Positions 11,763-32,251 of a stretch of DNA of 32,251 nucleotides are shown one piece after another. The translations under genes were made by a program, and so were the position numbers. Every line of letters begins with the position of its first letter. Position 1 is the first letter of the stretch. The stretch comes from a virus: positions 1 through 32,251 of the IMG/VR virus record IMGVR_UViG_3300030106_007757. The stretch is one strand, 5' to 3'. The notes under the pieces are model-generated. The model had not been told where the DNA came from and ran no database searches. It saw only the letters and a program-made list of their open reading frames with translations.

Positions 11763-12490
11763 AAATAGATGAATTTACTATATGTTTACATTGTGGTAGT
11801 GATCGAAAAGTTTCTGATCATCAAATGGAATTATTAAAACCACTTGAAGACGAATATAAAATTACTTATAATAATAGAATTGATAGACACCCTTTAATTT
11901 ATCCTTCTTATTCTCAGTTAATTAATCATTCTATAGTAACATCACATACTGAATATATTTTCTTTATTAACGATAGAACATTTCCAAAACCTCATGAGAT
12001 TAAAAAGATGATTGATCATCTAGAAAATGGCTTTGCATGGACGACTTTATGGGGTGTAGCTTTTATGGCTTTTTCTAAAGAATTAGTTAGGCAAATAGGA
12101 TGGTGGGACGAAAGATATGTAAACGGTGGGTGGGAAGATAGAGATTGGGTTTGGCGACTTAAAGAAGCTAATCTAGCTATCTATGAAAGTCATGAAGCAT
12201 CGTATGATCAATCATGGAAGTCACATCTTAATGTTGCAGGAGGTCATCAATCAACCCCTTTCTGGCTTAAAAAGTGGAATGGAGATAGACATGATGTTGT
12301 ATTAAAAAATATAGCTGATGAAGAGTATGAGCATTGGGAAATATTTTTAGGAGAAGAGAGACCAGATATAAGAAAAGAATGGAATACATGGGATAAGTCG
12401 ATTTTAAATGTAGCGGAAGGAGCAGAAGGTTCAGGACCTGCTAGCTCTTACCTTCTCGGTAATCGTGAAATAGTTAAAAATTATGAATGA
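11759..12490 (+). CDS. Glycosyltransferase, GT-A fold with EDRDW motif (GT2/GT7-like)
   Basis: A 243-residue protein. HTEYIFFINDRTFPKPHEIK (residues ~60-79) places NDR where the DxD site is expected. AFMAFSKELVRQIGWWDERY followed by VNGGWEDRDWVWRLKEANLA (~100-140) is a strong match to the catalytic G-W-x-x-E-D-x-(D/E)-(W/F)-x-x-R-(L/I) loop of GT2/GT7-like enzymes. The C-terminus is Trp- and Glu-rich. It is the last of the eight tandem glycosyltransferases; its end overlaps the PIG-L deacetylase by 8 bases. Sugar donor and acceptor are unknown. Confidence 0.78.
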   Translation: MKIDEFTICLHCGSDRKVSDHQMELLKPLEDEYKITYNNRIDRHPLIYPSYSQLINHSIVTSHTEYIFFINDRTFPKPHEIKKMIDHLENGFAWTTLWGVAFMAFSKELVRQIGWWDERYVNGGWEDRDWVWRLKEANLAIYESHEASYDQSWKSHLNVAGGHQSTPFWLKKWNGDRHDVVLKNIADEEYEHWEIFLGEERPDIRKEWNTWDKSILNVAEGAEGSGPASSYLLGNREIVKNYE

Positions 12491-13100
12491 AAGAACTTTA
12501 GTAATATCACCTCATATCGATGATGAGGTATTAGGTTGTTATGCTGCACTTCATGACAATTGTCACGTAATGGAGTGTGGTGTAGATAAATTTCATGTAG
12601 TTGATCGTGAAGAGCGACTTGAAGAATTAAAAGCATTAGCTGAATATAAAAAATTTACTTTTAAAGTTTTCGAAAACAAAGTAAACAACTATACTATAAG
12701 AACATTAATTCATCAAATTGAAGATCAAATTAACGAGATTAAACCAGAAAAAATATTTATACCATACCCTTCTTACAACCAAGATCATGTTACTGTATAT
12801 GACGCGTCGTTAGTAGCGTTAAGGCATCATGATGTAAATCATTTTGTTAAAAAAGTAGTCGCGTATGAAGAAGTACATAGTTTCTTATGGGATTATACAC
12901 ATGATATTAATAGTACTTTTAAGGGCAATTACTTTGTACCTATTGATATAGAAGATAAAATTACGTCTTATAAGTTTCTTAAATCACAAGTACGTGGTCA
13001 TCGAAGCCCTGAAATGTTAAGATTAATAGCAAGAATGAGAGGCGTGCAGGGAAACTTTGAGAACGCTGAAGCATTTCAAATTTTAAGATGGGTAGATTAA
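12483..13100 (+). CDS. PIG-L/LmbE-type N-deacetylase
   Basis: A 205-residue protein. VISPHIDDEVLGCYAAL (residues 7-23) is the PIG-L zinc motif (P-H-x-D-D-E-x-x-G), and YNQDHVTVYDASLVALR (~97-113) contains the H-x-x-V downstream zinc His segment (here QDH). The family removes the acetyl group from N-acetylglucosamine-type sugars (lipid-linked, thiol-linked or free). Its ATG lies inside the last codons of the preceding glycosyltransferase and its stop shares a base with the ATG of the formyltransferase, so the two would be made together. The sequence indicates a cytoplasmic enzyme. In this setting it most likely exposes the amino group of an N-acetylated sugar for further modification (inference). 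Confidence 0.85.
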   Translation: MNERTLVISPHIDDEVLGCYAALHDNCHVMECGVDKFHVVDREERLEELKALAEYKKFTFKVFENKVNNYTIRTLIHQIEDQINEIKPEKIFIPYPSYNQDHVTVYDASLVALRHHDVNHFVKKVVAYEEVHSFLWDYTHDINSTFKGNYFVPIDIEDKITSYKFLKSQVRGHRSPEMLRLIARMRGVQGNFENAEAFQILRWVD

Positions 13101-13777
13101 TGAAAAAAATATTATTATGTTCTTATAGAGACTGGTCTAATCAAATTTGCAAAGATGTAGAAGACTATTTTGCAAATTATGAAGATTTAATTATTATTAA
13201 ATGTACTACACAAGAAAAATTTCTTAATATTATAAAAGAAAATAAATTTGATTATATTTTCTTTCTAGGGTGGAGTGATATTATAGACAAGAGTATAGTA
13301 GACAATAATTTTTGTATTTGTCTGCACCCTTCCATGCTTCCTAAATACAGAGGAGGGAGCCCTTTACAGCATCAAATTATAAACAATGAAGAGGAAATGG
13401 GAGTAACGTTATTTAAAATGGATGAGTATTTGGATAAAGGGGATATAATATTTCAACAACCCATCTCTATCTTTATTGAAGATAATCTAGATGATATCTA
13501 TAATCAAATTAGTATTTCAGGTTATAATGGTGTGCGATGGATCATTGAATGTTTATGTCAAGGTATTAAAATAGATTTAAGGCCTCAAGATGATAATAAA
13601 AGTACGTATTTCAAGCGACGTACACCAGCAATGAGTGAAATAAAAATAGATGATTTTAAAAATTTAACTGCAACCGATATACATAATAAGGTTAGATGTC
13701 TTCAAGACCCATATCCAAATGCTTATATTGTTTGCAAAGATAATACTTACCTATATATTACTAATACTAAAGTATGA
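13100..13777 (+). CDS. Formyltransferase (methionyl-tRNA/amino-sugar N-formyltransferase family) with Asn-to-Cys change
   Basis: The start is placed at ATG 13100 (MKKILLCSYRDW), overlapping the deacetylase stop by one base; an ATG 12 bases upstream is possible. About 225 residues. CICLHPSMLPKYRGGSPLQH (residues ~70-89) and GVTLFKMDEYLDKGDIIFQQ (~99-118) match the formyl-transferase N-x-H-P-S-x-L-P-x-x-R-G and L-D-x-G-D-I motifs that bind N10-formyltetrahydrofolate. The catalytic His and Asp are present, but the usual Asn two residues before His is Cys. The C-terminal TYFKRRTPAMSEI resembles the linker to the substrate domain of sugar formyltransferases. Directly following a de-N-acetylase, it would suit formylation of a freed amino sugar. 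The Asn change leaves activity uncertain. Confidence 0.78.
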   Translation: MKKILLCSYRDWSNQICKDVEDYFANYEDLIIIKCTTQEKFLNIIKENKFDYIFFLGWSDIIDKSIVDNNFCICLHPSMLPKYRGGSPLQHQIINNEEEMGVTLFKMDEYLDKGDIIFQQPISIFIEDNLDDIYNQISISGYNGVRWIIECLCQGIKIDLRPQDDNKSTYFKRRTPAMSEIKIDDFKNLTATDIHNKVRCLQDPYPNAYIVCKDNTYLYITNTKV

Positions 13778-14721
13778 GACTATTATTTGTACCAACTAAT
13801 AAAGTAACTGCTCAAAATGACTATCTTGAGGTATCAATTTTGCATGGTTTGAGAGAAATAATGGGTAATCAATGTGTAGATTACCCCCGTAAGAAAATAA
13901 TGTATAATGATTTTTCCGATATTCCTAAAGATCAATTACACGGAAAGGGATTTACTTTGTTAACTAAACCTATAAAAGACTTAAGTGAAAAGGAAAGGGA
14001 ACTAAATCAATTTGATGCTGTATTATATGGGTGTGGTCATATGTACGGTGAAGGAACTGTAAAGGAGTTTAATAAAATATCAAAAAATAATGTTTGGGTA
14101 TTAGATGGACATGATTTATTTGGTGATGCTCCTCGTAAAATAGAATTTAATGATCAAGAGGTTATAGGTGTCCAATTTAGAAAATGTTTTAAAAGGGAAC
14201 TAGTGGAAAAAGTACCTGATGTATATCCTACAGGCTTTGGTATACCAGAATATCAGATTAGACCATTTGATATATCAAAGAAAGATCAGCAATATCAAAA
14301 AACTGCTCCGGATAATTCTTTATTTCAAACTGTAAACGATTTAGGAGGAGGCTTTTCACACCATAAATTTACAAAAGAAGAAGATTATTATAACGACTTA
14401 AGTCGGTCTTGGTTTGGATTAACTTGTCAAAAAGGAGGTTGGGATTGCATGAGACATTATGAAATTATGGCAGCAGGATCTGTTTTGCTTTTTAGAGATT
14501 ACAACTTAAAACCTGCAGCATGCTCTCCGCAAGCAATACCTTGTCTTTCATATTCATCTAGAGAAGAACTAGATAGTATAATGAATAGATTGGTAGTAGA
14601 TAATAAACCTACCGATGAATATTATTTTTATCTACATAAGCAAAGAGAATGGTTAAATAATGTAGGTACAACAAAAGCTAGAGCAAAACAAATTATAAAA
14701 ATTATTAAAAAGAGTTTATGA
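13774..14721 (+). CDS. Probable GT-B-type glycosyltransferase
   Basis: A 315-residue protein. The C-terminal half contains SWFGLTCQKGGWDCMRHYEI followed by MAAGSVLLFRDYNLKP (residues ~209-244), the pattern S-x-x-G-L...R-x-x-E-x-x-A-x-G-x-x-(P/L)-L seen in GT-B donor-binding domains (exostosin- and CgeB-like). The N-terminal half has two plausible Rossmann elements, MRLLFVPTNK and FDAVLYGCGHMY, and NVWVLDGHD. Overlaps the formyltransferase by 4 bases and the following epimerase by 4. I cannot assign donor or acceptor. Being separated from the GT-A run by the deacetylase/formyltransferase pair, it may act on the product of that pair. Confidence 0.6.
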   Translation: MRLLFVPTNKVTAQNDYLEVSILHGLREIMGNQCVDYPRKKIMYNDFSDIPKDQLHGKGFTLLTKPIKDLSEKERELNQFDAVLYGCGHMYGEGTVKEFNKISKNNVWVLDGHDLFGDAPRKIEFNDQEVIGVQFRKCFKRELVEKVPDVYPTGFGIPEYQIRPFDISKKDQQYQKTAPDNSLFQTVNDLGGGFSHHKFTKEEDYYNDLSRSWFGLTCQKGGWDCMRHYEIMAAGSVLLFRDYNLKPAACSPQAIPCLSYSSREELDSIMNRLVVDNKPTDEYYFYLHKQREWLNNVGTTKARAKQIIKIIKKSL

Positions 14722-15668
14722 AAAAAATATTAATATCAGGAGGAGCAGGATTTTTAGGTACATATTCTATAGAAAAATATCTAGAAGAAGGATACGATAT
14801 TACTGTTATAGATAATTTTTCTACAGCAGTAGTAAAAAACAATGACCCTGTTCTAGAAAAAGTAAAATTAATTGAAGACGATATCTTAAATGTAAAATGG
14901 ACTGACTTAGAAAAGTACGATTTAATTTTACACTTAGCAAGTCCAGTTGGACCAGCTGGTATATTAAAGCATTCCGGAAAGATGGCGAAGTATATTTTAG
15001 ACGACATATATTGGGCTATTGAAGGCGCACAACATAATAGCTGTCCATTAGTCTTTGTTAGTACATCTGAAATTTATGGTTATAGAGAAAAAGCTGTTTT
15101 ATTAAAAGAAGAAGATGATAAACTTTTAGTTGGTGATTTTAAAGTTCGTAATGAATATAGTATAGCAAAATTATTAGCAGAAATTGTTTTGTCAAATACA
15201 GCTAAAGTAAGTGACTTACAATATCAAATTATTAGACCATTTAATATTAGCGGAGCTAGACAATTAAAGGATGGTGGTTTCGTTTTACCAACATTTGTAA
15301 CACAATCTTTAAGTGAAAACGATATTACCGTTTTTAATGACGGTAAACAAATTAGAGCCTTTACACATGTTACAGATATTGTTAATGGTATCTATCTTAC
15401 TTCACAGTCTGATTTCAATGAAATTTGGAATGTTGGTAATCCAGATAACCAATGTACAATTTTAGAAATGGCAGAAGTAGTAAAAAGAAAAACACAGTCA
15501 GATTCAGATATTACATTTGTTGATCCAAAAACTATTCATGGACCATTGTATGAAGAAGCATGGGATAAAATACCTAACCCAGAAAAAATAGCAGATAAAC
15601 TCGGTTGGGTTGCAAATCATGACGTTGATTATATCATAAATGATGTAATTAATTATTATAGTTCATGA
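14718..15668 (+). CDS. NAD-dependent nucleotide-sugar epimerase/dehydratase (extended SDR)
   Basis: A 316-residue extended short-chain dehydrogenase. KILISGGAGFLGTYSIEKYL gives the Rossmann G-x-x-G-x-x-G, VIDNFS the NAD-binding Asp, LILHLASPVG the L-H-L-A strand, VFVSTSEIYG the catalytic Ser/Thr, and NEYSIAKLLAE the Y-x-x-x-K pair (~residues 150-154). IIRPFNISG and RAFTHVTDIVNGI are conserved substrate-domain segments. Length and motifs fit UDP- or GDP-sugar epimerases, 4,6-dehydratases or UDP-glucuronate decarboxylases; the LASPVGPAGI segment recalls the decarboxylase branch, but I would not decide. Overlaps both neighbours by 4 bases. Confidence 0.82.
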   Translation: MKKILISGGAGFLGTYSIEKYLEEGYDITVIDNFSTAVVKNNDPVLEKVKLIEDDILNVKWTDLEKYDLILHLASPVGPAGILKHSGKMAKYILDDIYWAIEGAQHNSCPLVFVSTSEIYGYREKAVLLKEEDDKLLVGDFKVRNEYSIAKLLAEIVLSNTAKVSDLQYQIIRPFNISGARQLKDGGFVLPTFVTQSLSENDITVFNDGKQIRAFTHVTDIVNGIYLTSQSDFNEIWNVGNPDNQCTILEMAEVVKRKTQSDSDITFVDPKTIHGPLYEEAWDKIPNPEKIADKLGWVANHDVDYIINDVINYYSS

Positions 15669-16405
15669 AAGAAATAGGTATAATAGGATACGGTGAAATA
15701 GGAGAGTCATTAGAGAAGTGTTATCTTGGTAAAGATTTTAATGTCAGTATAGTAGATACAGGAAAAGATATTAATCAAATTACTGATAGTGTTGACATTT
15801 TAAATATCGCGATTCCTTTCACCAGTATTTCTAAGTTTGTTAAAATAGTATCTCAATATATAGAAAAATATTCACCCAAGCTTACCATTATTCATAGTAC
15901 AGTTACTCCGGGTACTACAAAATTAATTATTGATATTACTAAATCAAATGTAGTTCATTCACCAGTCCGCGGTGTACATCCTAATTTATACGAAGGATTA
16001 AAATCTTTTGTAAAATGTATTGGTGGTGAAGACGATTATTCAATCGACTTAGCTAAAGAACATTACGATAAGTTAGAAATAAAGTATAAAGTTTTTAATG
16101 GTTCAGCTGCTACTGAATTAGCTAAAATTCTTTCAACAACTTATTATGGTATGTGTATTGCTTTTCATAATGATATAAACAAGCTGTGTAATGAATATGA
16201 TGTAAATTTTGATGAAGTTGCAACACAATGGAATAGAACATACAATGAAGGTTATAAAAAATTAGGAATGGAAAATGTTGTACGACCAGTATTATATCCT
16301 CCTAAAGATGGTAAGATAGGTGGTCATTGTGTTATACCTAACGCAGAGCTTTGCAAAAAGTTTTTTGATAGTACAGTATTAGATTATATTTTAGAATTAA
16401 AATGA
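15665..16405 (+). CDS. Short nucleotide-sugar dehydrogenase-like protein (UDP-glucose/GDP-mannose dehydrogenase family)
   Basis: A 246-residue protein. IGIIGYGEIGESLEKCYLGK is a G-x-G-x-x-G NAD-binding start; DILNIAIPFTS and IIHSTVTPGTT (residues ~77-87) match the UDP-glucose dehydrogenase V-x-x-S-T-V-P-x-G-T-T motif; GSAATELAKILSTTYYGMCI matches the central helix (A-E-L-x-K-x-x-x-N); DGKIGGHCVIPNAELCKK carries Cys222 in the G-G-x-C-x-P setting of the catalytic Cys. These enzymes oxidise C6 of UDP- or GDP-sugars to uronic acids. The protein ends 24 residues after the Cys, so the usual C-terminal nucleotide-sugar-binding domain (~130 residues) is missing. Either this is a natural short form or its activity differs. 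Overlaps neighbours by 4 bases. Confidence 0.72.
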   Translation: MKEIGIIGYGEIGESLEKCYLGKDFNVSIVDTGKDINQITDSVDILNIAIPFTSISKFVKIVSQYIEKYSPKLTIIHSTVTPGTTKLIIDITKSNVVHSPVRGVHPNLYEGLKSFVKCIGGEDDYSIDLAKEHYDKLEIKYKVFNGSAATELAKILSTTYYGMCIAFHNDINKLCNEYDVNFDEVATQWNRTYNEGYKKLGMENVVRPVLYPPKDGKIGGHCVIPNAELCKKFFDSTVLDYILELK

Positions 16406-17439
16406 AAAAAGCATTAGTATTAGGAGCCGGCGGTTTTATTGGAAGCCATTTAGTAAAAAGACTTAAAGAAGATGGGTATTGGGTACGTGGTGCTGATTTA
16501 AAATATCCGGAATTTTCAACTGTATTAGCAGATGAATTCATAAGTGGTAATAATGGCGACTTACGAAGTCAATCTAACTGTGAAAGATTAATAAAATTTG
16601 ATGGTAAGCAAGGTAATTTTTACAATAATGTTCCGGAACAGTATAAGGAACCTTTTGATGAAATTTATCAATTAGCAGCAGATATGGGCGGCGCTGGTTT
16701 TATTTTTACTGGTGATAACGATGCTGATATTATGCATAATTCTGCTACAATTAATTTAAATATTTTAAATGCAGTAAAAACTTTTAATGAATATAGAGGT
16801 GAAAATAAAACAAAAATATTCTATAGTAGTAGTGCATGCATGTATCCGGAACATAATCAGTTAGACCCGGATAATCCTAACTGTGAAGAGTCATCTGCGT
16901 ACCCTGCTGACCCAGATTCAGAGTATGGTTGGGAAAAATTATTTAGTGAAAGATTATATCTAGCTTATAATAGAAATTATGATATACCTGTAAGAATTGC
17001 GCGCTTTCATAATATATTTGGACCCCAGGGTACATGGGATGGAGGCCGTGAAAAGGCACCAGCTGCTATTTGCAGAAAGGTATTACAGGCAAAAAATAAT
17101 GGTGAAATAGAAATATGGGGCTCAGGTGAACAAACTAGAAGCTTTTTATATATAGATGAATGCATTGAAGGGGTAATTAGGTTAATGAACTCTGATTTTT
17201 CTGAACCAGTAAATATTGGATCAGATGAAATGGTGACAATAAATGAACTAGTAGATATTGCTGCAGAAATACAAAGCAAACCACTTGTTAAAAAACATAT
17301 TGATGGTCCTTTAGGAGTAGCAGGAAGAAATTCTGATAATAAATTAATTAAAGAAAAGATAGGATGGGCCCCCGATTATCCTTTAGCAAAAGGTATAGAG
17401 AAAACATACTGGTGGATATTTGAACAACTTAAATTATAA
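16402..17439 (+). CDS. GDP-mannose 3,5-epimerase-like enzyme
   Basis: A 345-residue extended SDR. KALVLGAGGFIGSHLVKRLK is the NAD motif. YQLAADMGGAGFI (residues ~87-99), YSSSACMYPEHNQL, AYPADPDSEYGWEKLFSE (Tyr/Lys pair), RIARFHNIFGPQGTW followed by GGREKAPAA, TRSFLYIDECIEGV and NIGSDEMVTINEL, then GRNSDNKLIKEKIGWAPDY match, block for block, the plant GDP-mannose 3,5-epimerase, including the ACxYP and R-E-K-A-P-A-A segments peculiar to it. That enzyme converts GDP-D-mannose to GDP-L-galactose and GDP-L-gulose. This gives the best indication of a donor sugar in the operon. Last gene of the tightly overlapped run, starting 4 bases inside its upstream neighbour. Confidence 0.87.
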   Translation: MKKALVLGAGGFIGSHLVKRLKEDGYWVRGADLKYPEFSTVLADEFISGNNGDLRSQSNCERLIKFDGKQGNFYNNVPEQYKEPFDEIYQLAADMGGAGFIFTGDNDADIMHNSATINLNILNAVKTFNEYRGENKTKIFYSSSACMYPEHNQLDPDNPNCEESSAYPADPDSEYGWEKLFSERLYLAYNRNYDIPVRIARFHNIFGPQGTWDGGREKAPAAICRKVLQAKNNGEIEIWGSGEQTRSFLYIDECIEGVIRLMNSDFSEPVNIGSDEMVTINELVDIAAEIQSKPLVKKHIDGPLGVAGRNSDNKLIKEKIGWAPDYPLAKGIEKTYWWIFEQLKL

Positions 17440-18027: not shown

Positions 18028-18380
18028 ATTTTTTTCAGCTTCAAAATAAATTATTTTATTCTAAGAAAGAAGACGCAGGTTATTTAGATTCAGAAGGCGA
18101 ACAAGCGTTTGTTCCTTTCTTGTTTAATAGATGGTTATCGTTTTATGATAACAATATGTGCGTTTTTACTAACGAAACTCTTAATAAGTTTAGTACTTTA
18201 TTTGATAATAAACAAGAGTCGTATAAATTATATTACTACTTGATTCCTAGACTTAAGTGGAAAAAAATTTCTTATATAAAGAAAAAGAAAAAAGAAGAGG
18301 AAGAAGTAGATTTAAGCTCTATTGCAAAAAATAAAAATATGTCTGTAAGAGAGTTAAAAATGTATTTAAATTATGAGTAA
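18024..18380 (+). CDS. Possible clamp-loader A subunit (gp62-like)
   Basis: A 118-residue basic protein. FFQLQNKLFYSKKED, FVPFLFNRWLSFYDNNMCVF, a middle Leu/Asn helix, and YYYLIPRLKWKKISYIKK recall the small gp62-type clamp-loader subunit of marine T4-like phages (N-terminal I/L-x-x-x-K, a P-F-(I/L)-x-N-(K/R)-x-L-S block, and an R-K-R-F-x-K-W-like basic segment). A run of Lys then Glu follows, and the C-terminus is a short helix (SVRELKMYLNYE). The T4 partner gp44 is not in the window, so context does not help. If correct, it would help load the sliding clamp for replication and late transcription. It overlaps its upstream neighbour by 4 bases and the next epimerase by 8. Confidence 0.4.
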   Translation: MNFFQLQNKLFYSKKEDAGYLDSEGEQAFVPFLFNRWLSFYDNNMCVFTNETLNKFSTLFDNKQESYKLYYYLIPRLKWKKISYIKKKKKEEEEVDLSSIAKNKNMSVRELKMYLNYE

Positions 18381-19272
18381 AGCAATTGTAACTGGTGGTG
18401 GAGGATTTATTGGGTCTAACCTGGTAGATAAGTTAGTTGAAATTTATGACAAAGTAATCATTATCGATAATGAATCAGCAGATTCTAATGAACAATTTTA
18501 TTATAATGATAAAGCTGAAAAGCATTTATTAAATGTATGCGACTACAAAAACACTAGACCGCTTTATGACGGGGTAGATTGTGTTTTTCATTTAGCAGCA
18601 GAATCTAGAATACAGCCAACTCTAGAAAATCCTGTATTAGCTGCACTTACTAATACCGTAGGAACCTGTACTGTATTACAATGTGCTAAAGAAGCTAATG
18701 TAAAGCGTGTTGTTTATAGTTCAACCTCTTCTGGATATGGCTTAAAGAATAAAATACCATTAAACGAAAACATGCCAGATGATTGTTTAAATCCTTATTC
18801 AGTAACTAAAGTATCAGGTGAAAAATTATGTAAAATGTATACTGATTTATTTGGTTTAGAGACAGTTGTCTTTAGATATTTTAACGTATATGGTGAAAGA
18901 CATCCAGTTAAAGGTCAATATGCTCCAGTTATCGGCATTTTTATTAGACAAAAAAATAACGGTGAGAAGCTTACTATTGTTGGAGATGGAAGACAAACGA
19001 GAGACTTTACACATGTTTCAGATGTTGTTCAAGCGAATATATTAGCATCAGATATTAACAATAAAAAACCGGTAGGCAAATTAATTAATTTAGGAACAGG
19101 TACAAATAATAGTATCTTGGAAATAGCTCAAATGGTTGGTGATAAGTACGCTTTTATAGAATCTCGTAGTGGTGAGGCACAAGATACATTAGCTGATATT
19201 TCAAAAGCTAAAGAGCTTTTAGGGTGGGAGCCAACAGTTAAGGTTGAAGATTGGATAAAGGATAATAGTTAA
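18373..19272 (+). CDS. NAD-dependent nucleotide-sugar epimerase (GalE-like extended SDR)
   Basis: A 299-residue extended SDR: KAIVTGGGGFIGSNLVDKLV (NAD motif), VIIIDNES (Asp binding adenosine ribose), CVFHLAAESRIQPTLENP, VVYSSTSSGYG (catalytic Ser/Thr), NPYSVTKVSGEKLC (Y-x-x-x-K), VVFRYFNVYGERHP, GRQTRDFTHVSDVV and INLGTG. The R-Y-F-N-V-Y-G and D-F-T-(H/Y)-V-x-D-V blocks fit UDP-glucose/UDP-GlcNAc 4-epimerases and relatives. It is apart from the main glycan operon, separated by the DUF366-like and clamp-loader-like genes, yet overlaps the latter by 8 bases and so is likely co-transcribed with it. It may supply one of the glycosyltransferases with its donor (inference). Confidence 0.85.
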   Translation: MSKAIVTGGGGFIGSNLVDKLVEIYDKVIIIDNESADSNEQFYYNDKAEKHLLNVCDYKNTRPLYDGVDCVFHLAAESRIQPTLENPVLAALTNTVGTCTVLQCAKEANVKRVVYSSTSSGYGLKNKIPLNENMPDDCLNPYSVTKVSGEKLCKMYTDLFGLETVVFRYFNVYGERHPVKGQYAPVIGIFIRQKNNGEKLTIVGDGRQTRDFTHVSDVVQANILASDINNKKPVGKLINLGTGTNNSILEIAQMVGDKYAFIESRSGEAQDTLADISKAKELLGWEPTVKVEDWIKDNS

Positions 19273-23305: not shown

Positions 23306-25120
23306 ATGCCTGGACCTGGATCATCAACAAGCCCTAATCAAAATCGTTCTTATGTAACGAACGATGGACGTGCTTCTACTTTTGGTAGAAACTTAATTCA
23401 ATATATTCAAAATAGATTACCATACGCAACTGATGGTAGAGGAGAAAACGATGCGTTAAATCCTAAATACAAAGTCTTTCAAAAAGCAGGAATGAGAAGA
23501 GCTGAAGCTTTAGCTAAGGCTTCTATTTCATCTTCTAACCCATACAATAATATTCCTATAGGTGATTTTGCAAAAGATTCATCTTTTGGTGATGTAATGT
23601 ATGCTAATATTCAAGACGATAAGCAAGGTCGTTTGAGAGATTATAGAATTATAGCTGCATATTCTGAAGTAGCTGATGCATTAGATGAAATTTGTGATGA
23701 GTCAATTAATCCTGATGAGTCAGGATGGATTACCAAATTACACTTTAAAGATATTGATCTTACAATAGAACAGAAAGAAATTCTAGATAAACAATTTCAT
23801 AGATATGTTGAGTATTATGATTTAAAAAACAAAGGATGGCAATATTTTAGACAGCTCTTAGTTGAAGGTGAAGTTTTCTTTGAGCAAATTATTCATGAAG
23901 GATATGTAGAAGATGGTGTATTAGGTGTAATAAATCTACCTGCTGAAATTATTGATCCTGTATATAACAATATACAAAACATGCTTGTAAAGGGGTATAT
24001 TTACCGTAAACCTATTTTTAGTCCTACCCACCCCAACAAAGTAGAAAAGATTGAATTTATTCCAATGGATCAAAACCAGATAATGTATGTTAATTCTGGT
24101 GTATATAACGAAACTAAAAACTTTGTAATTCCATTTTTAGAAAATGCTAGACGGCCATATAGACAATTATCTTTAATCGAAGATGCAATTGTAATTTATC
24201 GCTTAGTAAGAGCTCCAGAAAGACTAGTCTTTAATGTGGATGTAGGTAATATGGCTCCACCAAAAGCTGAAGCTTACTTACGTAAATTAATTCAAAATTA
24301 TTGGTCCAGAAAAACATTTGACATGGATCAAAATGATGTAGTTAAAAAGTTTAATCCTCAATCAATGTTAGATGCTTTTTGGTTTGCTAAGAGACAAGGA
24401 TCAGAAGGAACATCAGTGGAACAATTAGCCGGTGGAGCTAATCTTGGAGAACTTTCAGACTTAATGTATTTTATTAAGAAGCTTTATAGAGCTCTTAAAG
24501 TACCTTCAACTAGATTAGATCCAACAGATCAAGCATCTGCAGATGGTTCTACTATATTAAGAGAAGAATTAAAGTTTGCACGGTTTGTAATGAGACAGCA
24601 GCAAAGATTTGCTGCAGGTCTTAAAAAAGGATTTATTACTCATTTAACATTAATGGGGCTGTTCGAACAATATGAACTTAATGAACAAAATCTTGAAATT
24701 GAATTTAATGTTCCTACTAATTTTTACGAGTTAAGAGAGAATCAAAGATTAGAATTAAAATCTAATAACTATAATAATCTTGCAAGTAATGAATTTGTTT
24801 CAGCTACATACGCACAGAAAAAATACCTTGGATGGAAAGATAGAGATATTTTAGCTAATAGAGAGTTCCTTAGAAAAGATGCCGAGCTGCAGTGGGAGAT
24901 GTCGCAAATTGCTGCTGCTGGCCCAGCGTGGAAGGAACAAGCAGTTGCAGGTGAAGTAGCAGGCGATGCTGCTGCAGTAGGAGGTGAAGGCGGCGGTGTA
25001 GGTGGAGGCGGAGCAGGTGATATACCTGACTTCGGAGGAGGTCCAGCAGATACTGGAGGTGAAGAAGTAGAGGTAGCTGCTGAAACAGAAGTAGATGCAG
25101 AAGAAACTGCTGAAGTTTAA
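23306..25120 (+). CDS. 20: Portal vertex protein gp20
   Basis: A 604-residue protein matching T4-like portals: ADALDEICDESINPDESGW, VEGEVFFEQIIHEG, DAIVIYRLVRAPERLVFNVD, VGNMAPPKAEAYLRKLIQNY, FWFAKRQGSEGTSVEQLAGG, LGELSDLMYFIKKLYRALKV and PSTRLDPTDQASADGSTILR followed by EELKFARFV. Twelve copies form the DNA channel at one capsid vertex, nucleate the prohead and dock terminase and neck. T4 gp20 has ~524 residues; the extra length is mostly a C-terminal tail (from ~residue 550) that is Gly/Ala-rich and then strongly acidic. A late-type octamer precedes the gene. Its stop codon overlaps the end of the small convergent gene by 4 bases. Confidence 0.93.
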   Translation: MPGPGSSTSPNQNRSYVTNDGRASTFGRNLIQYIQNRLPYATDGRGENDALNPKYKVFQKAGMRRAEALAKASISSSNPYNNIPIGDFAKDSSFGDVMYANIQDDKQGRLRDYRIIAAYSEVADALDEICDESINPDESGWITKLHFKDIDLTIEQKEILDKQFHRYVEYYDLKNKGWQYFRQLLVEGEVFFEQIIHEGYVEDGVLGVINLPAEIIDPVYNNIQNMLVKGYIYRKPIFSPTHPNKVEKIEFIPMDQNQIMYVNSGVYNETKNFVIPFLENARRPYRQLSLIEDAIVIYRLVRAPERLVFNVDVGNMAPPKAEAYLRKLIQNYWSRKTFDMDQNDVVKKFNPQSMLDAFWFAKRQGSEGTSVEQLAGGANLGELSDLMYFIKKLYRALKVPSTRLDPTDQASADGSTILREELKFARFVMRQQQRFAAGLKKGFITHLTLMGLFEQYELNEQNLEIEFNVPTNFYELRENQRLELKSNNYNNLASNEFVSATYAQKKYLGWKDRDILANREFLRKDAELQWEMSQIAAAGPAWKEQAVAGEVAGDAAAVGGEGGGVGGGGAGDIPDFGGGPADTGGEEVEVAAETEVDAEETAEV

Positions 25121-26710: not shown

Positions 26711-27144
26711 GGAAATGGAGACAGGGTATATTTACACCTACTAATCCGGATAAATTTATAGGTAGTAAAGCTGTTTATAGATCTGGACTTGAATTAAAGT
26801 TTTTTAGATTTTGCGATAATAACGATAATGTAAAAAAGTGGGGTAGTGAAAATGTAATTGTGCCTTATATAAGCCCTTTAGATCATAGAGCTCATAGATA
26901 TTTTGTAGATAATTATATTGAAATATTAGAAGGTAATAAATTAAAAAAGTATCTTGTAGAAATTAAACCATCAAAACAAACAAAACCCCCTACAACAAAA
27001 TATAGAAAACGACAGCATTTATTATATGAACAAAGAGCATATGTTATAAATCAAGCAAAATGGGAAGCAGCTCGTGAATATAGTAAAAAAATTGGCTGTG
27101 AGTTTATTATTTTAACAGAAAAAGAGCTAATTTATAACAAATGA
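26707..27144 (+). CDS. 4: gp4-like head completion protein (nuclease fold)
   Basis: A 145-residue protein, close to T4 gp4 (~150). KWRQGIFTPTNPDKFIG, YRSGLELKFFRFCDNNDNVK, KWGSENVIVPYISPLDHRAH followed by RYFVDNYIEI, and KYLVEIKPSKQTKPP match the gp4 pattern. The residues Glu (in GLELKF), Asp (VDNY) and E-x-K (VEIKP) form the PD-(D/E)xK-type catalytic set also seen in TnsA-like endonucleases. gp4 completes filled heads and is thought to trim DNA at the portal before tail joining. Translationally coupled to gp13 (4-base overlap). Confidence 0.83.
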   Translation: MRKWRQGIFTPTNPDKFIGSKAVYRSGLELKFFRFCDNNDNVKKWGSENVIVPYISPLDHRAHRYFVDNYIEILEGNKLKKYLVEIKPSKQTKPPTTKYRKRQHLLYEQRAYVINQAKWEAAREYSKKIGCEFIILTEKELIYNK

Positions 27145-27151
27145 ATAAATA
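27144..27151 (+). promoter_or_regulatory. Late-promoter-like octamer (AATAAATA) before gp21
   Basis: AATAAATA begins on the last base of the gp4 stop codon and is followed by ATTAC and the ATG at 27157. The 16-base string AATAAATAATTACATG is identical at the start of the 30541 gene. Confidence 0.55.
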
Positions 27152-27156
27152 ATTAC

Positions 27157-27822
27157 ATGTCGTTAAAACTTAACTTGGTTGTAGAAAAACCTGATGTAGA
27201 AGACGAGTTCGAATACATTGAAGAAGAAGTAGATAGAAACTCACCTTCTAATTTATATATTAAAGGCCCATATATGATGGCTGAAGGAGTCAATCGTAAT
27301 AATAGATTGTATCCAATTGACGAATTACAAAGAGAAGCTAATAGATATATTGAAGAGATGGTAAAGCCCGGGCGCGCAATGGGCGAGCTAAATCACCCGA
27401 CTACCGCAGATGTAGATTTAGAAAGAGCTTGTCACATGGTAACCGAGTTAACTCAAGACGGAAATGTTTTTTATGGTAAGTCTAAGGTCTTATCAACACC
27501 ATGTGGTCAAATTGTACGTGCATTAATTAATGATGGTGTTAAAGTTGGTATGTCTTCTAGAGCATTAGGTACATTAGAAGAGGGAAGTAAGCATAATACA
27601 GTTAAAAATATGAAGTTAGTAGCTATAGATTGTGTTGCTGATCCATCTTACCCATCTGCCTTTGTTAATGGTATCTTAGAGTCAAAGCAATGGGTACTAG
27701 TAGACGATAACAAATACGAAGAAGTATATGAAAATTTCGAAAAATCCCTTGAAAGGTTGCCTAAAAAGGACATAGATTCATTTTTACGTGATAGAATTCT
27801 TAGCTTTATTAAATCAATCTAA
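27157..27822 (+). CDS. 21: Prohead core protease gp21
   Basis: A 221-residue protein of the T4 gp21 serine protease family. NLYIKGPYMMAEGVNRNNRL is the conserved N-terminal block (x-G-x-(Y/F)-M-x-x-x-x-x-N-x-N-x-R-x-Y). GRAMGELNHPTTADVDLERA carries catalytic His80, and VKVGMSSRALGTL carries the nucleophile (Ser133 or Ser134). VAIDCVADPSYPSAFVNGIL matches the C-terminal strand-and-P-S block. It cleaves scaffold and capsid proteins after Glu in (L/I)-x-E sites during head maturation; a matching site lies in gp23 here (after Glu57). Next to its substrates gp22 and gp23. Confidence 0.92.
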   Translation: MSLKLNLVVEKPDVEDEFEYIEEEVDRNSPSNLYIKGPYMMAEGVNRNNRLYPIDELQREANRYIEEMVKPGRAMGELNHPTTADVDLERACHMVTELTQDGNVFYGKSKVLSTPCGQIVRALINDGVKVGMSSRALGTLEEGSKHNTVKNMKLVAIDCVADPSYPSAFVNGILESKQWVLVDDNKYEEVYENFEKSLERLPKKDIDSFLRDRILSFIKSI

Positions 27823-27828
27823 TAAATA
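27821..27828 (+). promoter_or_regulatory. Late-promoter-like octamer (AATAAATA) before the small core protein
   Basis: AATAAATA overlaps the gp21 stop codon and ends 5 bases before the ATG at 27834. It would drive the small core protein and gp22 together. Confidence 0.5.
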
Positions 27829-27833
27829 ATAGT

Positions 27834-27980
27834 ATGTCCAAACAAAAACAAAAAATAGCTAAGTTTATTGAGCATATTTCTAGTAAAAATTATGCTAAGG
27901 CACATAAATATTTAAAGAGCGTTGTTGAAGATAAGATAACAAAAAAAATTAACAACGCAACAGAAAAACCACTCTTTTAA
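27834..27980 (+). CDS. Small prohead core protein (gp67/gp68-like), 48 residues
   Basis: A 48-codon gene between gp21 and gp22: starts MSKQKQKIAKFIEHISSKNY, continues AKAHKYLKSVVEDKITKKI and ends ATEKPLF. It is a lysine-rich double helix without Trp. The arrangement (I-x-x-F-I/L-x-x-I-x-x-K-N-Y-x-x-A-x-K-Y-L-x-x-V-V-x-x-K-I-x-x-(K/R)-I) resembles the small prohead core proteins of T4-like phages, which lie beside gp21/gp22 in T4 (67, 68). It has its own octamer and ends 3 bases before the gp22 ATG. Likely helps set the length or shape of the scaffold core. Size and position are the main support. Confidence 0.62.
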   Translation: MSKQKQKIAKFIEHISSKNYAKAHKYLKSVVEDKITKKINNATEKPLF

Positions 27981-27983
27981 ACC

Positions 27984-28838
27984 ATGAGCAAAAAACAAGC
28001 ATTACCAGAACAAGCAGAAGAGGTACTTACTGAAGAGTCAGTACAGGCTATTGAGACTGCTATTGAAGAAAAAATTCAGCTATCAGTAGAAGCTGCTTTA
28101 ACTAATCAAGATGAGCTTTATGCTGAAAAACTTGAAGAGTTAGTAACTGCAATTGATAAAGATCATACAGATAAGCTTAAGAGAGTGGTTGAAGCTGTAG
28201 ATCATAACAATGCAAATAAACTTATTAAAGTTGTAAAGCGTTATGAAAATGAGCTAAATGGTCGCGCAAGTAAGTTTAAAGATACATTAGTAGAAAGTAT
28301 CTCTGATTACTTAGAAGAGTATCTAGAAGAGTCAGTACCTACTCAAGCAATTGAAGAGGCTACTAAGAATAGAACTGCTAGAGAAGTCTTAGGTAATTTA
28401 AGAAAAGTGCTTGCTGTTGATTCTACTCTTATGAGTGAGTCAGTTAAAGAAGCTGTCATGGATGGAAAGACTCAAATTGATGAGTTAAATGCTAAAGTAA
28501 ATGCTCTTGCTAAGCAAAATAAAGTTCTTAGTGAGAAGTATAGATCTACTAAAGCTAATCTTCTTATTGAAGCTAAGACAGCAAACTTATCTGAAGGTAA
28601 AAAGTCTTATTTACGTAAGATTTTGATTGATAAGACTCCGGAGTTCATCGAAGAAAATTTCGAATATACTGCTAAGTTATTTGATAAGAAAGAGAAAGAA
28701 AGACTTACAGTTATTAAAGAGGAGGCATACAAAAAACGTAAGGTCAAAACAGATGCCCCTGTACAACAGATTTCAGAGAAGAAAGAAGAGAAACAGTATA
28801 ACCCTTATTTAGCAGAGTTAGAAAGATCTCACAAATAA
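27984..28838 (+). CDS. 22: Prohead scaffold protein gp22
   Basis: A 284-residue, highly charged, helical protein without Cys or Trp, close to T4 gp22 (~269). The N-terminal half (residues ~5-110) is predicted long coiled coil (EEKIQLSVEAALTNQDELYA, EKLEELVTAIDKDHTDKL). DELNAKVNALAKQNKVLSEK (~160-185) is a second coiled coil, and SEGKKSYLRKILIDKTPEFI is the conserved late block of the family. It forms the inner core around which gp23 assembles and is then cut to peptides by gp21; (L/I)-x-E sites such as LAELE near the C-terminus fit this. It follows the small core gene by 3 bases and shares its promoter. Confidence 0.87.
   Translation: MSKKQALPEQAEEVLTEESVQAIETAIEEKIQLSVEAALTNQDELYAEKLEELVTAIDKDHTDKLKRVVEAVDHNNANKLIKVVKRYENELNGRASKFKDTLVESISDYLEEYLEESVPTQAIEEATKNRTAREVLGNLRKVLAVDSTLMSESVKEAVMDGKTQIDELNAKVNALAKQNKVLSEKYRSTKANLLIEAKTANLSEGKKSYLRKILIDKTPEFIEENFEYTAKLFDKKEKERLTVIKEEAYKKRKVKTDAPVQQISEKKEEKQYNPYLAELERSHK
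28830..28837 (+). promoter_or_regulatory. Weak late-promoter-like octamer (CACAAATA) possibly driving gp23
   Basis: CACAAATA overlaps the end of gp22. It has two mismatches to TATAAATA, so it is weak, but it is the only candidate at the right place for a separate gp23 transcript. Use of it would give a leader of about 79 bases. Confidence 0.3.
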
Positions 28839-28856
28839 TTTCACCCCTGAACATTG

Positions 28857-28894
28857 AGGTGCTTGCCACCTGAGTATCTTGGGACTAGATCCCA
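28857..28894 (+). promoter_or_regulatory. Structured 5' leader of gp23 (two hairpins)
   Basis: Hairpin 1: AGGTG (28857-28861) with CACCT (28867-28871), loop CTTGC. Hairpin 2: TGGGA (28880-28884) with TCCCA (28890-28894), loop CTAGA. ACCT (28868-28871) could instead pair with AGGT at 28897-28900, a possible ribosome binding sequence, so two alternative folds exist. The other virion genes have no leader of this kind. I do not recognise a known riboswitch class. Confidence 0.5.
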
Positions 28895-28895
28895 T

Positions 28896-28925
28896 GAGGT
28901 AAAAATGAAAGGAAACGTCTTATGA
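28896..28925 (+). promoter_or_regulatory. gp23 ribosome binding region with an overlapping 6-codon leader ORF
   Basis: AAAGGA (28908-28913) is a good Shine-Dalgarno sequence 8 bases before the gp23 ATG. It lies inside a tiny ORF, ATG at 28905, reading MKGNVL, whose TGA (28923-28925) overlaps the gp23 ATG (ATGA). The tiny ORF has its own GAGG (28896-28899) 5 bases upstream. Translation of the leader ORF could be coupled to gp23, but whether it is translated is unknown. Confidence 0.45.
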
Positions 28926-30418
28926 ATAAACCACAATCATTTATCGATAGAGATAGAGCAGATGCACTTCTTGAGAAGTGGGCACCTGTTCTTGAATACT
29001 CTTCCGACAGTGTTAAGGCTATTGAAGACGATCATACTCGTTTAAACACCGCTATTCTTTTGGAGAACCAGGAGAAGTGGTGTATCGAGGAAGCCAATAC
29101 AGCAGGATCCGGCGGATCTCTTGGTAGCGGAGCTACTATGAGTTCTATTTACGGACCAAACGCTGCCGCACAGAACATTGATTCTGGCGACACGTATGCT
29201 AACAGTGACGCTCGTCTTCCTAAAGTACTTATCCCGATGATTCGTCGTACGTTCCCTGAGCTTATCACCAACGAAATCGTTGGTGTCCAGCCTATGTCCG
29301 GACCTGTTGGTTTGGCATTTGCTCTTCGTTATGCATATCAGTCCCAGCAACTGGGTGATGGCATCGACGGAAGCACTGCTGCAACTGGTCATGGTCCAGG
29401 TGGTGGAGGTGGAGCACCTACCAACCAGTACTCTGGTAGTACTGGGCTTCCAGGTGATGAACTTGGATATCAGTTGCTCGACACCCGCTTTACTGGAACT
29501 TCATCCGCCCGCCTTAGTGGTGGCGATGATTGGACATTCGCACAGCAAGACCAAGGTGTTGCTCAGATCCTTTCCGCTTTTGAGATCACTGGAAACATTC
29601 CTCAGGTTGAGGTTAAGTTCGAGAAGACCGCAGTTGAGGCCGGCACACGCCGTCTTGGCGCACGTTGGTCCGTCGAGCTTGAGCAAGACCTTAAGAACAT
29701 GAACGGTATTGATATTGATGCTGAAATCACAAACGCTATGTCGTATGAGATTCAGGCTGAGATCGACCGTGAAATGCTCATGAGAATGATTCAAGCTGCT
29801 CTTGGAGCTGGATATGGAGCTGGATACACCATTTGGCAGCCTGCATCTGCAGACGGCCGTTGGTTGGTTGAGCGTAACAGGGACTTCTATCAGCGTCTTA
29901 TCATTGAGGCCAATCGTATCGCCGTCCGTAACAGACGTGGATCTGCAAACTTTGTTGTTGCAACTCCTCGTGTTTGCGCCATCCTTGAGATGCTCCCTGA
30001 ATTCCAGTGGGTACCAGTCCAGGGTGATGTTAACACACAGCCTGTTGGCATTGCGAAGATTGGTTCTGTAGGTGGAAGATTCAACGTTTACCGTGATACT
30101 AGAACAGAAGTTCAGAACAATCCTAATTATACAAGCGCTAACGCTGGCGAATACACAGGCTCTACTGCAAGTGTTGAGTATGCGTTGCTTGGATATAAGG
30201 GTCCTGAGTTTTACGATACTGGTATCATTTACTGTCCTTACATTCCTGTCATGGTTCAGAGAACTATTGGTCCTAACGACTTCGCACCACGTGTTGGCTT
30301 GCTTACTCGTTATGGTGTTGTTGACAACATCTTCGGAGCAAATCTCTACTACCATGTCATTCTTGTTCAGGGACTTGGTACTGCGTTCACTCCAGGCTCG
30401 ACAGCAGTGTACTTCTAA
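28922..30418 (+). CDS. 23: Major capsid protein gp23
   Basis: A 498-residue T4-like major capsid protein (T4: 521). RADALLEKWAPVLEY at the N-terminus and SDARLPKVLIPMIRRTFPEL, followed by ITNEIVGVQPMSGPVGLAFA (residues ~98-137), are hallmark blocks. VKFEKTAVEAGTRRLGARWS, VELEQDLKNMNGIDIDAEI, ANFVVATPRVCAILEML, KGPEFYDTGIIYCPYIPVMV and FAPRVGLLTRYGVVDNIFGA are further conserved segments. gp21 should cut after Glu57 in W-C-I-E-E|A-N, equivalent to T4 Glu65|Ala66. The coding sequence is much richer in G+C than its neighbours and uses CGT/CGC for most Arg codons, where the rest of the window uses AGA. It has its own leader and terminator. Confidence 0.96.
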   Translation: MNKPQSFIDRDRADALLEKWAPVLEYSSDSVKAIEDDHTRLNTAILLENQEKWCIEEANTAGSGGSLGSGATMSSIYGPNAAAQNIDSGDTYANSDARLPKVLIPMIRRTFPELITNEIVGVQPMSGPVGLAFALRYAYQSQQLGDGIDGSTAATGHGPGGGGGAPTNQYSGSTGLPGDELGYQLLDTRFTGTSSARLSGGDDWTFAQQDQGVAQILSAFEITGNIPQVEVKFEKTAVEAGTRRLGARWSVELEQDLKNMNGIDIDAEITNAMSYEIQAEIDREMLMRMIQAALGAGYGAGYTIWQPASADGRWLVERNRDFYQRLIIEANRIAVRNRRGSANFVVATPRVCAILEMLPEFQWVPVQGDVNTQPVGIAKIGSVGGRFNVYRDTRTEVQNNPNYTSANAGEYTGSTASVEYALLGYKGPEFYDTGIIYCPYIPVMVQRTIGPNDFAPRVGLLTRYGVVDNIFGANLYYHVILVQGLGTAFTPGSTAVYF

Positions 30419-30464
30419 TAGGAGTCATCGCTGGTTGAAGCAGCAGTCGAGAGACACAATCACG

Positions 30465-30496
30465 AAACGGCGAGACGAAAGTCTCGCCGTTTTTTT
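30465..30496 (+). terminator. Strong intrinsic terminator after gp23
   Basis: AAACGGCGAGAC (30465-30476), loop GAAA (a stable GNRA tetraloop), GTCTCGCCGTTT (30481-30492), then T to 30496: a perfect 12-bp stem, GC-rich, with a T-tract. It would end the gp23 transcript and separate it from the 30541 gene, which has its own octamer. The 46 bases between the gp23 stop and this stem hold no gene. Confidence 0.95.
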
Positions 30497-30527
30497 GTCT
30501 AAACATGCAATAAAAAAGAACGAAAAT

Positions 30528-30535
30528 AATAAATA
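30528..30535 (+). promoter_or_regulatory. Late-promoter-like octamer (AATAAATA) before the 30541 gene
   Basis: AATAAATA, then ATTAC, then the ATG at 30541, identical over 16 bases to the gp21 start region. Placed 31 bases after the gp23 terminator, where a fresh promoter is needed. Confidence 0.55.
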
Positions 30536-30540
30536 ATTAC

Positions 30541-31269
30541 ATGGCTATTAATTCATTTTCACACGCAGTGTTATCTGCATCATTAGTAAGTTACCCGGAA
30601 CTAGCAGAAGGGTCGGGTTACGCCGCGACCGGTTCAGTTTCTAATGTAGTTTCTCTAACAGCAGGAACAGAAGTTCATACTCCTGGAAGAGATACCGGAA
30701 TCGGAACTAGAAAAAGCGCACTTTCTGGTGTTATAGGATTAAGAAAACTTGGTGCAATTGGAGAACATCCAGTTTCACAATTATTATATACCCCGCCTCC
30801 AAGAACTAATGGCCATGTACCACAACCGGTACCTATTGGTGGTGATGGAACAGAAGGGTTTCCAGTAAATCCTGTAACTAACGAAGCAGCTGGTAGATCT
30901 AATCTTATTGCTTATCAAACAGGTGCAAAACAAGGTGCACAATGTGTAGCTGAATATAGACTAGTATCGCCTGAAGGTACTGAAACTGTAAGTTTCCATA
31001 GACCTCATTTAAAGCACGCTGGTGATACTTTTATTAGTTCGAGCTTATCTGGTATTACTGTAGCACTTAGAACTAGCCCTTCAGAAGCAGGAAAGAGTAG
31101 ACATCAAATTCATGATCACCCTCATTCAGGTATTGAAGTACAATATTACTTACCTGATCCAGGTGCTGGTGCTGGTTCAGCTCTTACAGTTGTATCTGCT
31201 GGATTAAGTAGTAAGCATTCAGGATTTGTAGGACCTGAGCATTCACGTAAGAGACTCTTAGGTTACTAA
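30541..31269 (+). CDS. Unknown protein downstream of gp23; probable virion protein
   Basis: A 242-residue protein rich in Gly, Ser, Ala, Pro and His, with few charged runs and no membrane segment. Visible parts are MAINSFSHAVLSASLVSYPE, GTEVHTPGRDTGIGTRKSAL, YTPPPRTNGHVPQPVPIGGD, AEYRLVSPEGTETVSFHRPH, and a His-rich HQIHDHPHSGIEVQYYLPDP. The composition suggests a beta-structured surface or head-decoration protein. I recognise no family. In T4 the vertex protein gp24 follows gp23, but this protein shows no likeness to the gp23/gp24 fold. It has a late-type octamer, fitting a virion component. It converges with the GT34-like gene 24 bases away. Confidence 0.6.
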   Translation: MAINSFSHAVLSASLVSYPELAEGSGYAATGSVSNVVSLTAGTEVHTPGRDTGIGTRKSALSGVIGLRKLGAIGEHPVSQLLYTPPPRTNGHVPQPVPIGGDGTEGFPVNPVTNEAAGRSNLIAYQTGAKQGAQCVAEYRLVSPEGTETVSFHRPHLKHAGDTFISSSLSGITVALRTSPSEAGKSRHQIHDHPHSGIEVQYYLPDPGAGAGSALTVVSAGLSSKHSGFVGPEHSRKRLLGY

Positions 31270-31300
31270 TTACTAAGCGTCTCCCTAAGCCTCCTAAGAG
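31255..31300. terminator. Possible bidirectional terminator between convergent genes
   Basis: CTCTTAGG (31255-31262) and CCTAAGAG (31293-31300) form an 8-bp inverted repeat spanning the last codons of the 30541 gene, the gap and the end of the minus-strand gene. The 30-base loop is long and there is no T-run, so termination is uncertain. Confidence 0.3.
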
Positions 31301-31998
31301 CATTCTATCTGTTTAAGATAGCCTCTAAACGTCTTTTTTATGCCGTGTGCACTTTTTAGAGTGCAAGGAAAATGTCTTACGTATGGATTATGCTTAGTAA
31401 TTTTCTCATAATTTTGTATTATATTTAAAGGTAATACTACACTTATATCTCTTATATTACATGTATTAAGTTCATACATCTTTTGACACACACCTTGCTC
31501 CCAATAAGGGTAATTTTGCTCAAACATCCACTCGTCATAAGTCCAAAAATCTAAAAGCTCTTTTACTTTTAATGTATTCTTAACTATAAAAACTCCTGTA
31601 TTTAACGCCGGGTATCTTACCTTACAATTAGATTTAAGCCATTCACTAGGATCAAGCTCCGGAGGAAATCCCTTACATGTACCATCTTCACTAAAGATTA
31701 TCTGTTTATCTTTATATTCATTAATTAGATCTTCAATAGGACCTCTATCGATATAAAAATGAGCATCAGCATCTATCCATATAACATAATCGTAGTTATC
31801 TAAATGCTCTATAACCATAGGTAACTTTTCCCAGGCTAAGTCTTTTCTATTATGTCTTCTTTTCGAAGAAAACTTAAAATCATAACCATATTTCTCGCAA
31901 TATGCTTTGTTTATCGTATAACTTAACTTACCATATTTTTTAGCAGTTAAACCATCAAACCACATTACCACACATATCTTATTCTTCTGGCTTGTCAT
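31294..31998 (-). CDS. GT34-like glycosyltransferase (GMA12/MNN10 type)
   Basis: The start is set at the ATG at 31998 (MTSQKNKICVVMWFDG); upstream in-frame ATGs fall in the previous gene and give a Cys-rich unlikely start. About 234 residues. TINKAYCEKYGYDFKFSS, AWEKLPMVIEHLDNYDYVIW followed by IDADAHFYI (DxD site, residues ~70-80), YPALNTGVFIVKNTLKVKEL (N-T-G-x-F) and FEQNYPYWEQGVCQKMYELN (acceptor-side Asp/Gln region), with VRHFPC...H late, fit GT34 galactosyl/mannosyl transferases. No membrane anchor. It lies 20 bases inside the end of a probable virion/fibre gene, so glycosylation of that or another surface protein is a fair guess. Confidence 0.72.
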   Translation of the reverse strand: MTSQKNKICVVMWFDGLTAKKYGKLSYTINKAYCEKYGYDFKFSSKRRHNRKDLAWEKLPMVIEHLDNYDYVIWIDADAHFYIDRGPIEDLINEYKDKQIIFSEDGTCKGFPPELDPSEWLKSNCKVRYPALNTGVFIVKNTLKVKELLDFWTYDEWMFEQNYPYWEQGVCQKMYELNTCNIRDISVVLPLNIIQNYEKITKHNPYVRHFPCTLKSAHGIKKTFRGYLKQIECS

Positions 31999-32251
31999 AC
32001 TCAACTCTAATACGTCCTTCATCATCAGTATAAGGATTCTGCAACATGTGCATATCATGTCTTTCTCCTAATACCATCCATGATACAGTAGCAGTTGAAT
32101 TTGCAACACAACTTTCAACAGTTAATGTGTTTCCAGATACTGAACCTCTAACTGGGTCCCAGTTAGTTTCATTAGTTGTAAATGTTCTAAAGCATCTATT
32201 TAAAGCAGTTAATGTACCATCTGTCATACCATGTAAATTATCGATATTAAC
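31979..32251 (-). CDS. C-terminal end of a probable virion/fibre protein, truncated by window edge
   Basis: The minus-strand frame is open to the window end (upstream codons read V-N-I-D-N-L-H-G before the first ATG at 32227), so the gene starts outside. The visible ~90 residues, NRCFRTFTTNETNWDPVRGS, VSGNTLTVESCVANSTATVS and WMVLGERHDMHMLQNPYTDD followed by EGRIRVEYDKPEE, are a beta-rich domain and a charged tail. The W-M-V-x-G-E-R-(H/Q)-D...T-D-D-x-G-x-(I/L) ending is familiar from C-termini of marine phage virion and tail-fibre-associated proteins. It overlaps the GT34-like start by 20 bases. Confidence 0.6.
   Translation of the reverse strand, partial: VNIDNLHGMTDGTLTALNRCFRTFTTNETNWDPVRGSVSGNTLTVESCVANSTATVSWMVLGERHDMHMLQNPYTDDEGRIRVEYDKPEE

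Follow-up and report, generated by a model that had tools for sequence, protein, structure and literature searches.

Why does the major capsid gene of an uncultured T4-like phage differ so sharply in base composition from the DNA around it? The gp23 gene (28922-30418, + strand) has a G+C content of 48.2%, versus about 32% for the remainder of the window, the 32,251-nucleotide stretch of DNA that was analysed, which comes from an uncultured virus record of 50,785 bases. A first-pass annotation had offered two explanations, that the whole transcription unit was exchanged from another phage, or that selection on coding and on RNA structure acted together on the most abundant protein.

The G+C step at gp23

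PHROG comparison placed the head genes of the window in T4 order, with the portal gene (23306-25120), head-completion genes, the gp21 prohead protease gene (27157-27822, + strand; PHROG 207, E 4e-57), a gene in the gp22 position (27984-28838, + strand) and gp23 (PHROG 138, E 3e-84). The gp22-position gene had no PHROG match and is called scaffold because it lies between gp21 and gp23, the arrangement of T4 and cyanophages. The location of gp23 after gp20, gp21 and gp22 is identical to the T4 order, and its homology to T4-like major head proteins was confirmed by tblastn matches in 2522 phage records, the best with about 32% identity. No DNA closely similar to the window was found among phage records. 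Relatives were obtained from a scan of viral contigs, which gave at least 600, of which 80 were kept, with gp23 65-89% identical; a gp23 scan of bacterial genomes, made as a host search, found no relative.

Several other features of these phages were observed. QueD-like (3499-4137) and QueE-like (4734-5666) genes hint at a pathway for 7-deazaguanine-type modification of DNA or tRNA. A sugar-biosynthesis cluster borne by the phage occupies positions 5683-17439 and 18373-19272; it is a long series of overlapping genes, each encoding about 230-345 aa, among them one for an exostosin-type glycosyltransferase and two for nucleotide-sugar epimerases/dehydratases. Beyond the head genes, positions 31979-50531 of the virus record (L087:980-19532, - strand) contain three very long ORFs of 1572, 2533 and 2065 codons, and one relative of the window phage carries a glutamine riboswitch (RF01739, 42.3 bits, L078:17120-17203).

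The composition step itself was as first described. The hand counts were exact (35 G+C in the 60 bases from 29641 and 15 in the 60 from 7201), about three quarters of the arginine codons of gp23 are CGT or CGC (21/29 counted), and the richest stretch of equal length (1497 bases) outside the gp23 region reached only 36.9% G+C (mean 31.4, sd 1.9). The shift had also been said to include the non-coding leader and the trailer. Both are indeed raised, to 44.6% in the leader (28839-28921, + strand) and 51.1% in the 45-base trailer spacer (30419-30463, + strand), but each alone is only moderately unusual, with 2.9% of leader-length and 1.7% of trailer-length stretches elsewhere in the window being equally G+C-rich.

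As for the relatives, the results showed a G+C rise at gp23 in every one fetched (80/80), with a mean of 11.8 points and a minimum of 3.3 in the 75 that had enough flank, and T4 and four annotated cyanophages show it as well. Pairwise gp23 distances track those of gp14, gp21 and gp22 (r 0.75-0.82). When gp23 and neighbour-gene trees were compared, they agreed for the lineage of the window, recovering it together with the main surrounding clades. The pattern is thus common to relatives with congruent trees, but the untranslated parts are not of ordinary G+C in this subclade, where they are raised. Acquisition of the unit, leader to terminator, from a G+C-richer phage would fit the sharp-edged step that takes in leader and trailer, and there is some mosaicism (window and relative L008 are 94% identical in gp21 but 79% in gp23); it is nevertheless scarcely credible, as the step is common to all 80 relatives and T4, the closest relative (L002) is closest in almost all genes, the window gp23 has a mean residual of 0.03 sd given gp21, the trees are congruent for the window lineage, and the codon changes follow optimal codons and are not G+C-driven. 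The horizontally exchanged cassette was rejected on these grounds, its pattern being present in close relatives and the history of gp23 not conflicting with that of its neighbours. These comparisons indicate that gp23 is, in all likelihood, a T4-type major capsid gene that was inherited vertically.

The amino acids of gp23 at ordinary codon usage would give 38.9% G+C, while 48.3% was observed and other coding sequence has 31.8%; the rise splits into about 7 points from amino-acid composition and about 9 points from a specific, putatively optimal codon set. In the window gp23, the codons CGT, CTT, GTT, TTC, ATC, AAC, GAC, AAG, GAG and CAG rise and ATA, TTA and AGA collapse, while GC-rich non-optimal codons (CGG, GGG, CCC, CTG, GCG, ACG) are not raised. 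Over 53 loci, CGT and TTC were up in 100% and AGA and CGA in 0%, and CGG, GGG, CTG and CCG were not raised. An internal control was provided by the gene 3' of gp23 (30541-31269), which has 41% G+C from its amino acids with third positions at 0.14, the ordinary level of the window; this gene is Gly/Ala-rich and had no match in Pfam or PHROG. Because the synonymous shift is specific to certain codons, the composition of gp23 points to codon selection and not to a G+C-rich donor. The high G+C of gp23 thus appears to be a side effect of selection for codons that are optimal in translation, together with a Gly/Ala/Arg-rich protein. Of the two explanations first offered, joint selection on coding and RNA structure was supported, its coding part being translational plus amino-acid selection and its RNA part residing in the leader, whose G+C stems from an RNA element that is conserved and covaries. 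The composition step as such is ordinary and already explained.

The trailer was equally ordinary. That gp23 has its own terminator was borne out by a strong hairpin at 30464-30493 (+ strand) followed by a T-run, with a z of -4.4 for 30416-30500. Such a terminator is present 3' of gp23 in 64/71 loci versus 16/420 control stretches, and cyanophages and T4 have similar stem-loop and T-run sequences after gp23. The 45-base spacer before it is conserved in the subclade of the window (L002, L006, L008, L013), and the G+C of the trailer is that of an intrinsic terminator plus this short conserved spacer. Separately, a second hairpin before the terminator was seen in the gp23 3' UTR of eight loci (L037, L038, L039, L045, L052, L054, L058, L059), with CCUAG/CUAGG or CCUGG/CCAGG stems, a two-sided change, and the loop tnngtc; five others (L066, L072, L074, L075, L077) have a different conserved hairpin with GAAATGATACAT.

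The RNA element in the gp23 leader

The gp22-gp23 junctions were found to repeat one design, consisting of a hairpin P1, in most loci a second hairpin P2, usually the motif GGUCGA, and a purine-rich Shine-Dalgarno (SD)-like site. P1 has a closing A-U pair, usually with G before and GA after it, P2 carries an asymmetric 3' bulge (UGA or UUG), and GGUCGA is present in 47/77 leaders. In the window, all on the + strand, P1 is AGGTG-cttgc-CACCT (28857-28871) with TTG before and GA after, P2 is TGGGA-ctaga-TCCCA (28880-28894) followed by TGAGGTAAA at the place where most relatives have GGTCGA, and the SD-like site is AAAGGA (28908-28913). The subclade of the window has GGTAAA in place of GGTCGA.

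Compensatory base changes were found among the relatives in both helices. In P1, standard pairs fill 92.4% of cells versus 74.4% in shuffles and at most 49% in slid registers, and two-sided changes number 41 versus 11 in shuffles, in an alignment that was fitted to the model and so favours structure. The count of the hairpin-plus-GA pattern is alignment-free, and gave 56/77 leaders versus 11.7 in dinucleotide shuffles (maximum 20). The P1 stems differ outright among loci (AGGTG/CACCT, AGACAT/GTGTCT, AAGTAT/ATACTT, AGATATTAAT/ATTAATGTCT). For P2, 79/80 cells are paired in class A versus 63.5 shuffled, and 108/120 in class B versus 90 shuffled. The same fold is mostly kept by relatives in more AT-rich leaders. 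The folding energy of the window leader is not unusual (z -0.13) and the stability of single leaders is mostly unremarkable, so the case for structure rests on comparison. The P1-P2 design is missing from about 7 of the 77 leaders, P1 stands alone in about 13 and one third have no SD-like site, so the wider group does not strictly require the element. The comparisons show that the gp23 leader is a conserved structured RNA element of P1, P2 and usually GGUCGA in this uncultured T4-like phage group.

Two further ideas about the leader were examined. A conserved upstream peptide starting at an xTG before P1 was rejected, being absent in 20/77 leaders and inconsistent in length (2-23 codons). Pairing of the GA after P1 with the UC of GGUCGA occurs in some predicted folds; these bases are invariant, or the pairing is broken where they vary, which leaves the contact unproven.

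The element is specific to this position. The window leader matches the leader covariance model at 28851-28903 (+ strand; 41.4 bits, E 1e-6), and model R2 gave 42 matches at E<0.01 in 0.9 Mb, all of them gp23 leaders, with a strong match occurring singly in contigs up to 230 kb. It had no match in T4, cyanophages or the rest of the window's record; the cultured or single-cell phages without a match were T4, P-HM2, P-SSM2, S-PM2, C48C1 and marine virus AG-341-P01. When 2.9 million viral contigs, some overlapping those fetched earlier, were searched with two DNA patterns made from the leader alone, 108 of the 110 placements ended 23-43 nt 5' of gp23, and in the other 2 the contig breaks off within the gp23 coding sequence. 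The idea that GGTCGA might be a general signal upstream of genes was discarded, since on inspection none of the 132 others found over both strands of 1.69 Mb lies behind such a hairpin pair except that of the L019 leader itself. No family of Rfam 15 matched the leader above its covariance-model gathering threshold, and no description of a gp23 leader RNA was found in the literature, which is weak evidence given the partial coverage. As far as these searches reach, the element is undescribed.

Late-promoter motifs, ribosome sites and a probable gp22-gp23 message

The T4 late -10 form, NATAAATA, lies within 30 nt of the ATG of gp21 in 53/58 loci, of gp20 in 10/12 and of gp13 in 19/32, versus a background of 1%, and for gp21 and gp13 the distance is most often exactly 13 nt. 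On the + strand of the window it occurs at 22073, 23290, 25498, 27144 and 30528, 13-19 nt before five late-gene start codons; these five genes have no SD sites, and the arrangement is repeated in relatives. Two of these sites read AATAAATA, one at 27144-27151, a T4-late-type promoter -10 element 13 nt 5' of the gp21 start, and the other at 30528-30535, 13 nt 5' of the start of the gene at 30541-31269. In T4 promoter geometry, such a spacing would make transcripts start at the start codon or within a few bases of it, implying that the mRNAs of the late neighbours may be near-leaderless.

The promoter pattern at gp23 was different. For gp22, NATAAATA lies within 130 nt in 48/59 loci, versus only 6/74 upstream stretches for gp23 (1/74 within 30 nt). 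In the window, CATAAATA at 27903-27910 (+ strand) is a candidate late promoter of a gp22-gp23 message and AATAAATA at 27821-27828 (+ strand) a second candidate. A sigma-70-type promoter was rejected, with fewer promoter-like sites over 27000-32251 than in shuffles. An SD-like site was found in 46/73 gp23 leaders versus 33/588 (6%) other long ORFs, and, by another count, in 52/77 leaders versus 13% in shuffles of the same bases. Its spacing is often long, the AGGA beginning 16-18 nt 5' of the ATG, and its median strength is -5.7 kcal/mol. The ribosome site was predicted to be more open than the leader body in 70/74 leaders, suggesting that the element leaves the downstream SD-like site relatively unpaired. 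Among the late genes, gp23 is an exception: it has an SD and lies behind a folded junction, and no separate promoter was recognised for it.

Taken together, these results make it probable that gp23 descended vertically with a G+C content driven by codons and amino acids, and that its conserved structured leader serves a gp22-gp23 message with a protected or processed, SD-led capsid cistron. Under such a scheme, gp23 would be the last cistron of a late message that is transcribed together with gp22 and ends at the terminator 3' of gp23. The intercistronic element would protect or process the gp23 part of this message and expose a dedicated SD-led start, and capsid protein would be made in large excess over scaffold. 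On a broader and more tentative view, which we hold possible rather than probable, most late genes of a large uncultured T4-like group may be near-leaderless and SD-less, with the capsid gene alone bearing a folded SD leader that is read by a specific factor or ribosome state raising late capsid synthesis.

The main rival to the protected or processed message is an operator. The leader element might be bound by a protein of the phage (gp23 itself, for instance) or of the host, for feedback or timed control of capsid synthesis; in T4, gp32 and gp43 do bind to structured leaders on the mRNAs that encode them (PMC3014915). The unpaired bases are conserved in sequence beyond what pairing requires (GA after P1, GGUCGA after P2), and there is one copy per genome, both consistent with a binding site. 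The partner protein is only hypothetical, and since the predicted fold is 5' of the SD and leaves it free, simple occlusion is unlikely unless a protein is bound. We regard an operator as a somewhat unlikely, though serious, possibility.

A special ribosome state, in which a Bacteroidota-type host ignores SDs and the gp23 SD is used by altered late ribosomes (lacking bS21 or carrying a phage bS21), is less probable and in our judgment unlikely. SD-like sites are almost confined to gp23, Bacteroidia ribosomes are SD-blind with rpsU as an SD-led exception (PMC9976891), and bS21-encoding phages are predicted to infect Bacteroidetes (PMC9723584). A bS21-like ORF was detected in the 229-kb relative L199 (G001:C1:39344-39463), and for one epimerase-family gene of the window the best match found, at 61%, was in a Crocinitomicaceae MAG. 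On the other side, the gp23 SD is weak beside the rpsU value of below -13 kcal/mol (PMC9976891), bS21 was seen in only 1/36 records with 28.2 bits against a cut-off of 27, and the Bacteroidota-type host is only presumed. A bS21 gene adjoining gp23 was also considered and dropped, the single bS21 being about 60 kb from gp23. The link to Bacteroidota ribosomes is suggestive only.

It is very doubtful that the hairpins act in DNA, as promoter or protein-binding site: the position at a gene junction where no late promoter was recognised, and the single copy, would suit this, but the stems vary freely with pairing kept, G-U pairs included, and the strand is constant relative to gp23, at 23-43 nt from its start.

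Comparison with known systems

What began as an oddity of base composition has led to an RNA element that can be tested, located at the capsid gene of uncultured phages that are widespread. Near-leaderless, SD-less late genes beside a capsid leader with both structure and an SD would be a natural system for late over-expression of one cistron, and the leader element merits experimental follow-up. Gene transfer should not be concluded from a G+C step at gp23, a caution that is needed since gp23 often serves as a marker gene. Phage structural genes are known to prefer host codons (Lucks et al. 2008, PMC2266997), and the same principle, a structural gene with a distinct and presumably optimal codon set, explains most of the step; unlike in that work, the bias is here concentrated in gp23 and common to 80 uncultured relatives and T4.

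Structures at the start sites of T4 mRNAs are inhibitory in e, soc, 49 and I-TevI and enhancing in 25 and 38 (PMC3014915). Like them, the gp23 leader is an RNA structure that related phages have kept, close to the beginning of a message of T4 type. The T4 structures, however, sequester the SD or AUG or lie between the two, whereas both gp23 hairpins lie in the gp22-gp23 gap, 5' of an SD predicted to be mostly open. An inhibitory start structure of the e and soc type was therefore rejected, as SD and AUG are not sequestered and the predicted ribosome site is the more open part in 70/74 leaders. So was a split SD as in genes 25 and 38, because P1 and P2 of the window (28857-28894) are 5' of the SD-like site and not between SD and AUG. 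The review names no such structure for gp23 (PMC3014915).

Marine T4-like cyanophages have the manA and wcaG RNA motifs (PMC2864571), likewise covarying cis-RNAs, found in marine metagenomes and in T4-like phages; they precede metabolic genes, and the gp23 leader, in contrast, precedes the capsid gene and has no Rfam match. The rpsU leader of Flavobacteriales with its extended SD (PMC9976891) differs in that the gp23 SD is much weaker and belongs to a phage gene, but both present the same arrangement, one SD-bearing gene among SD-less genes.
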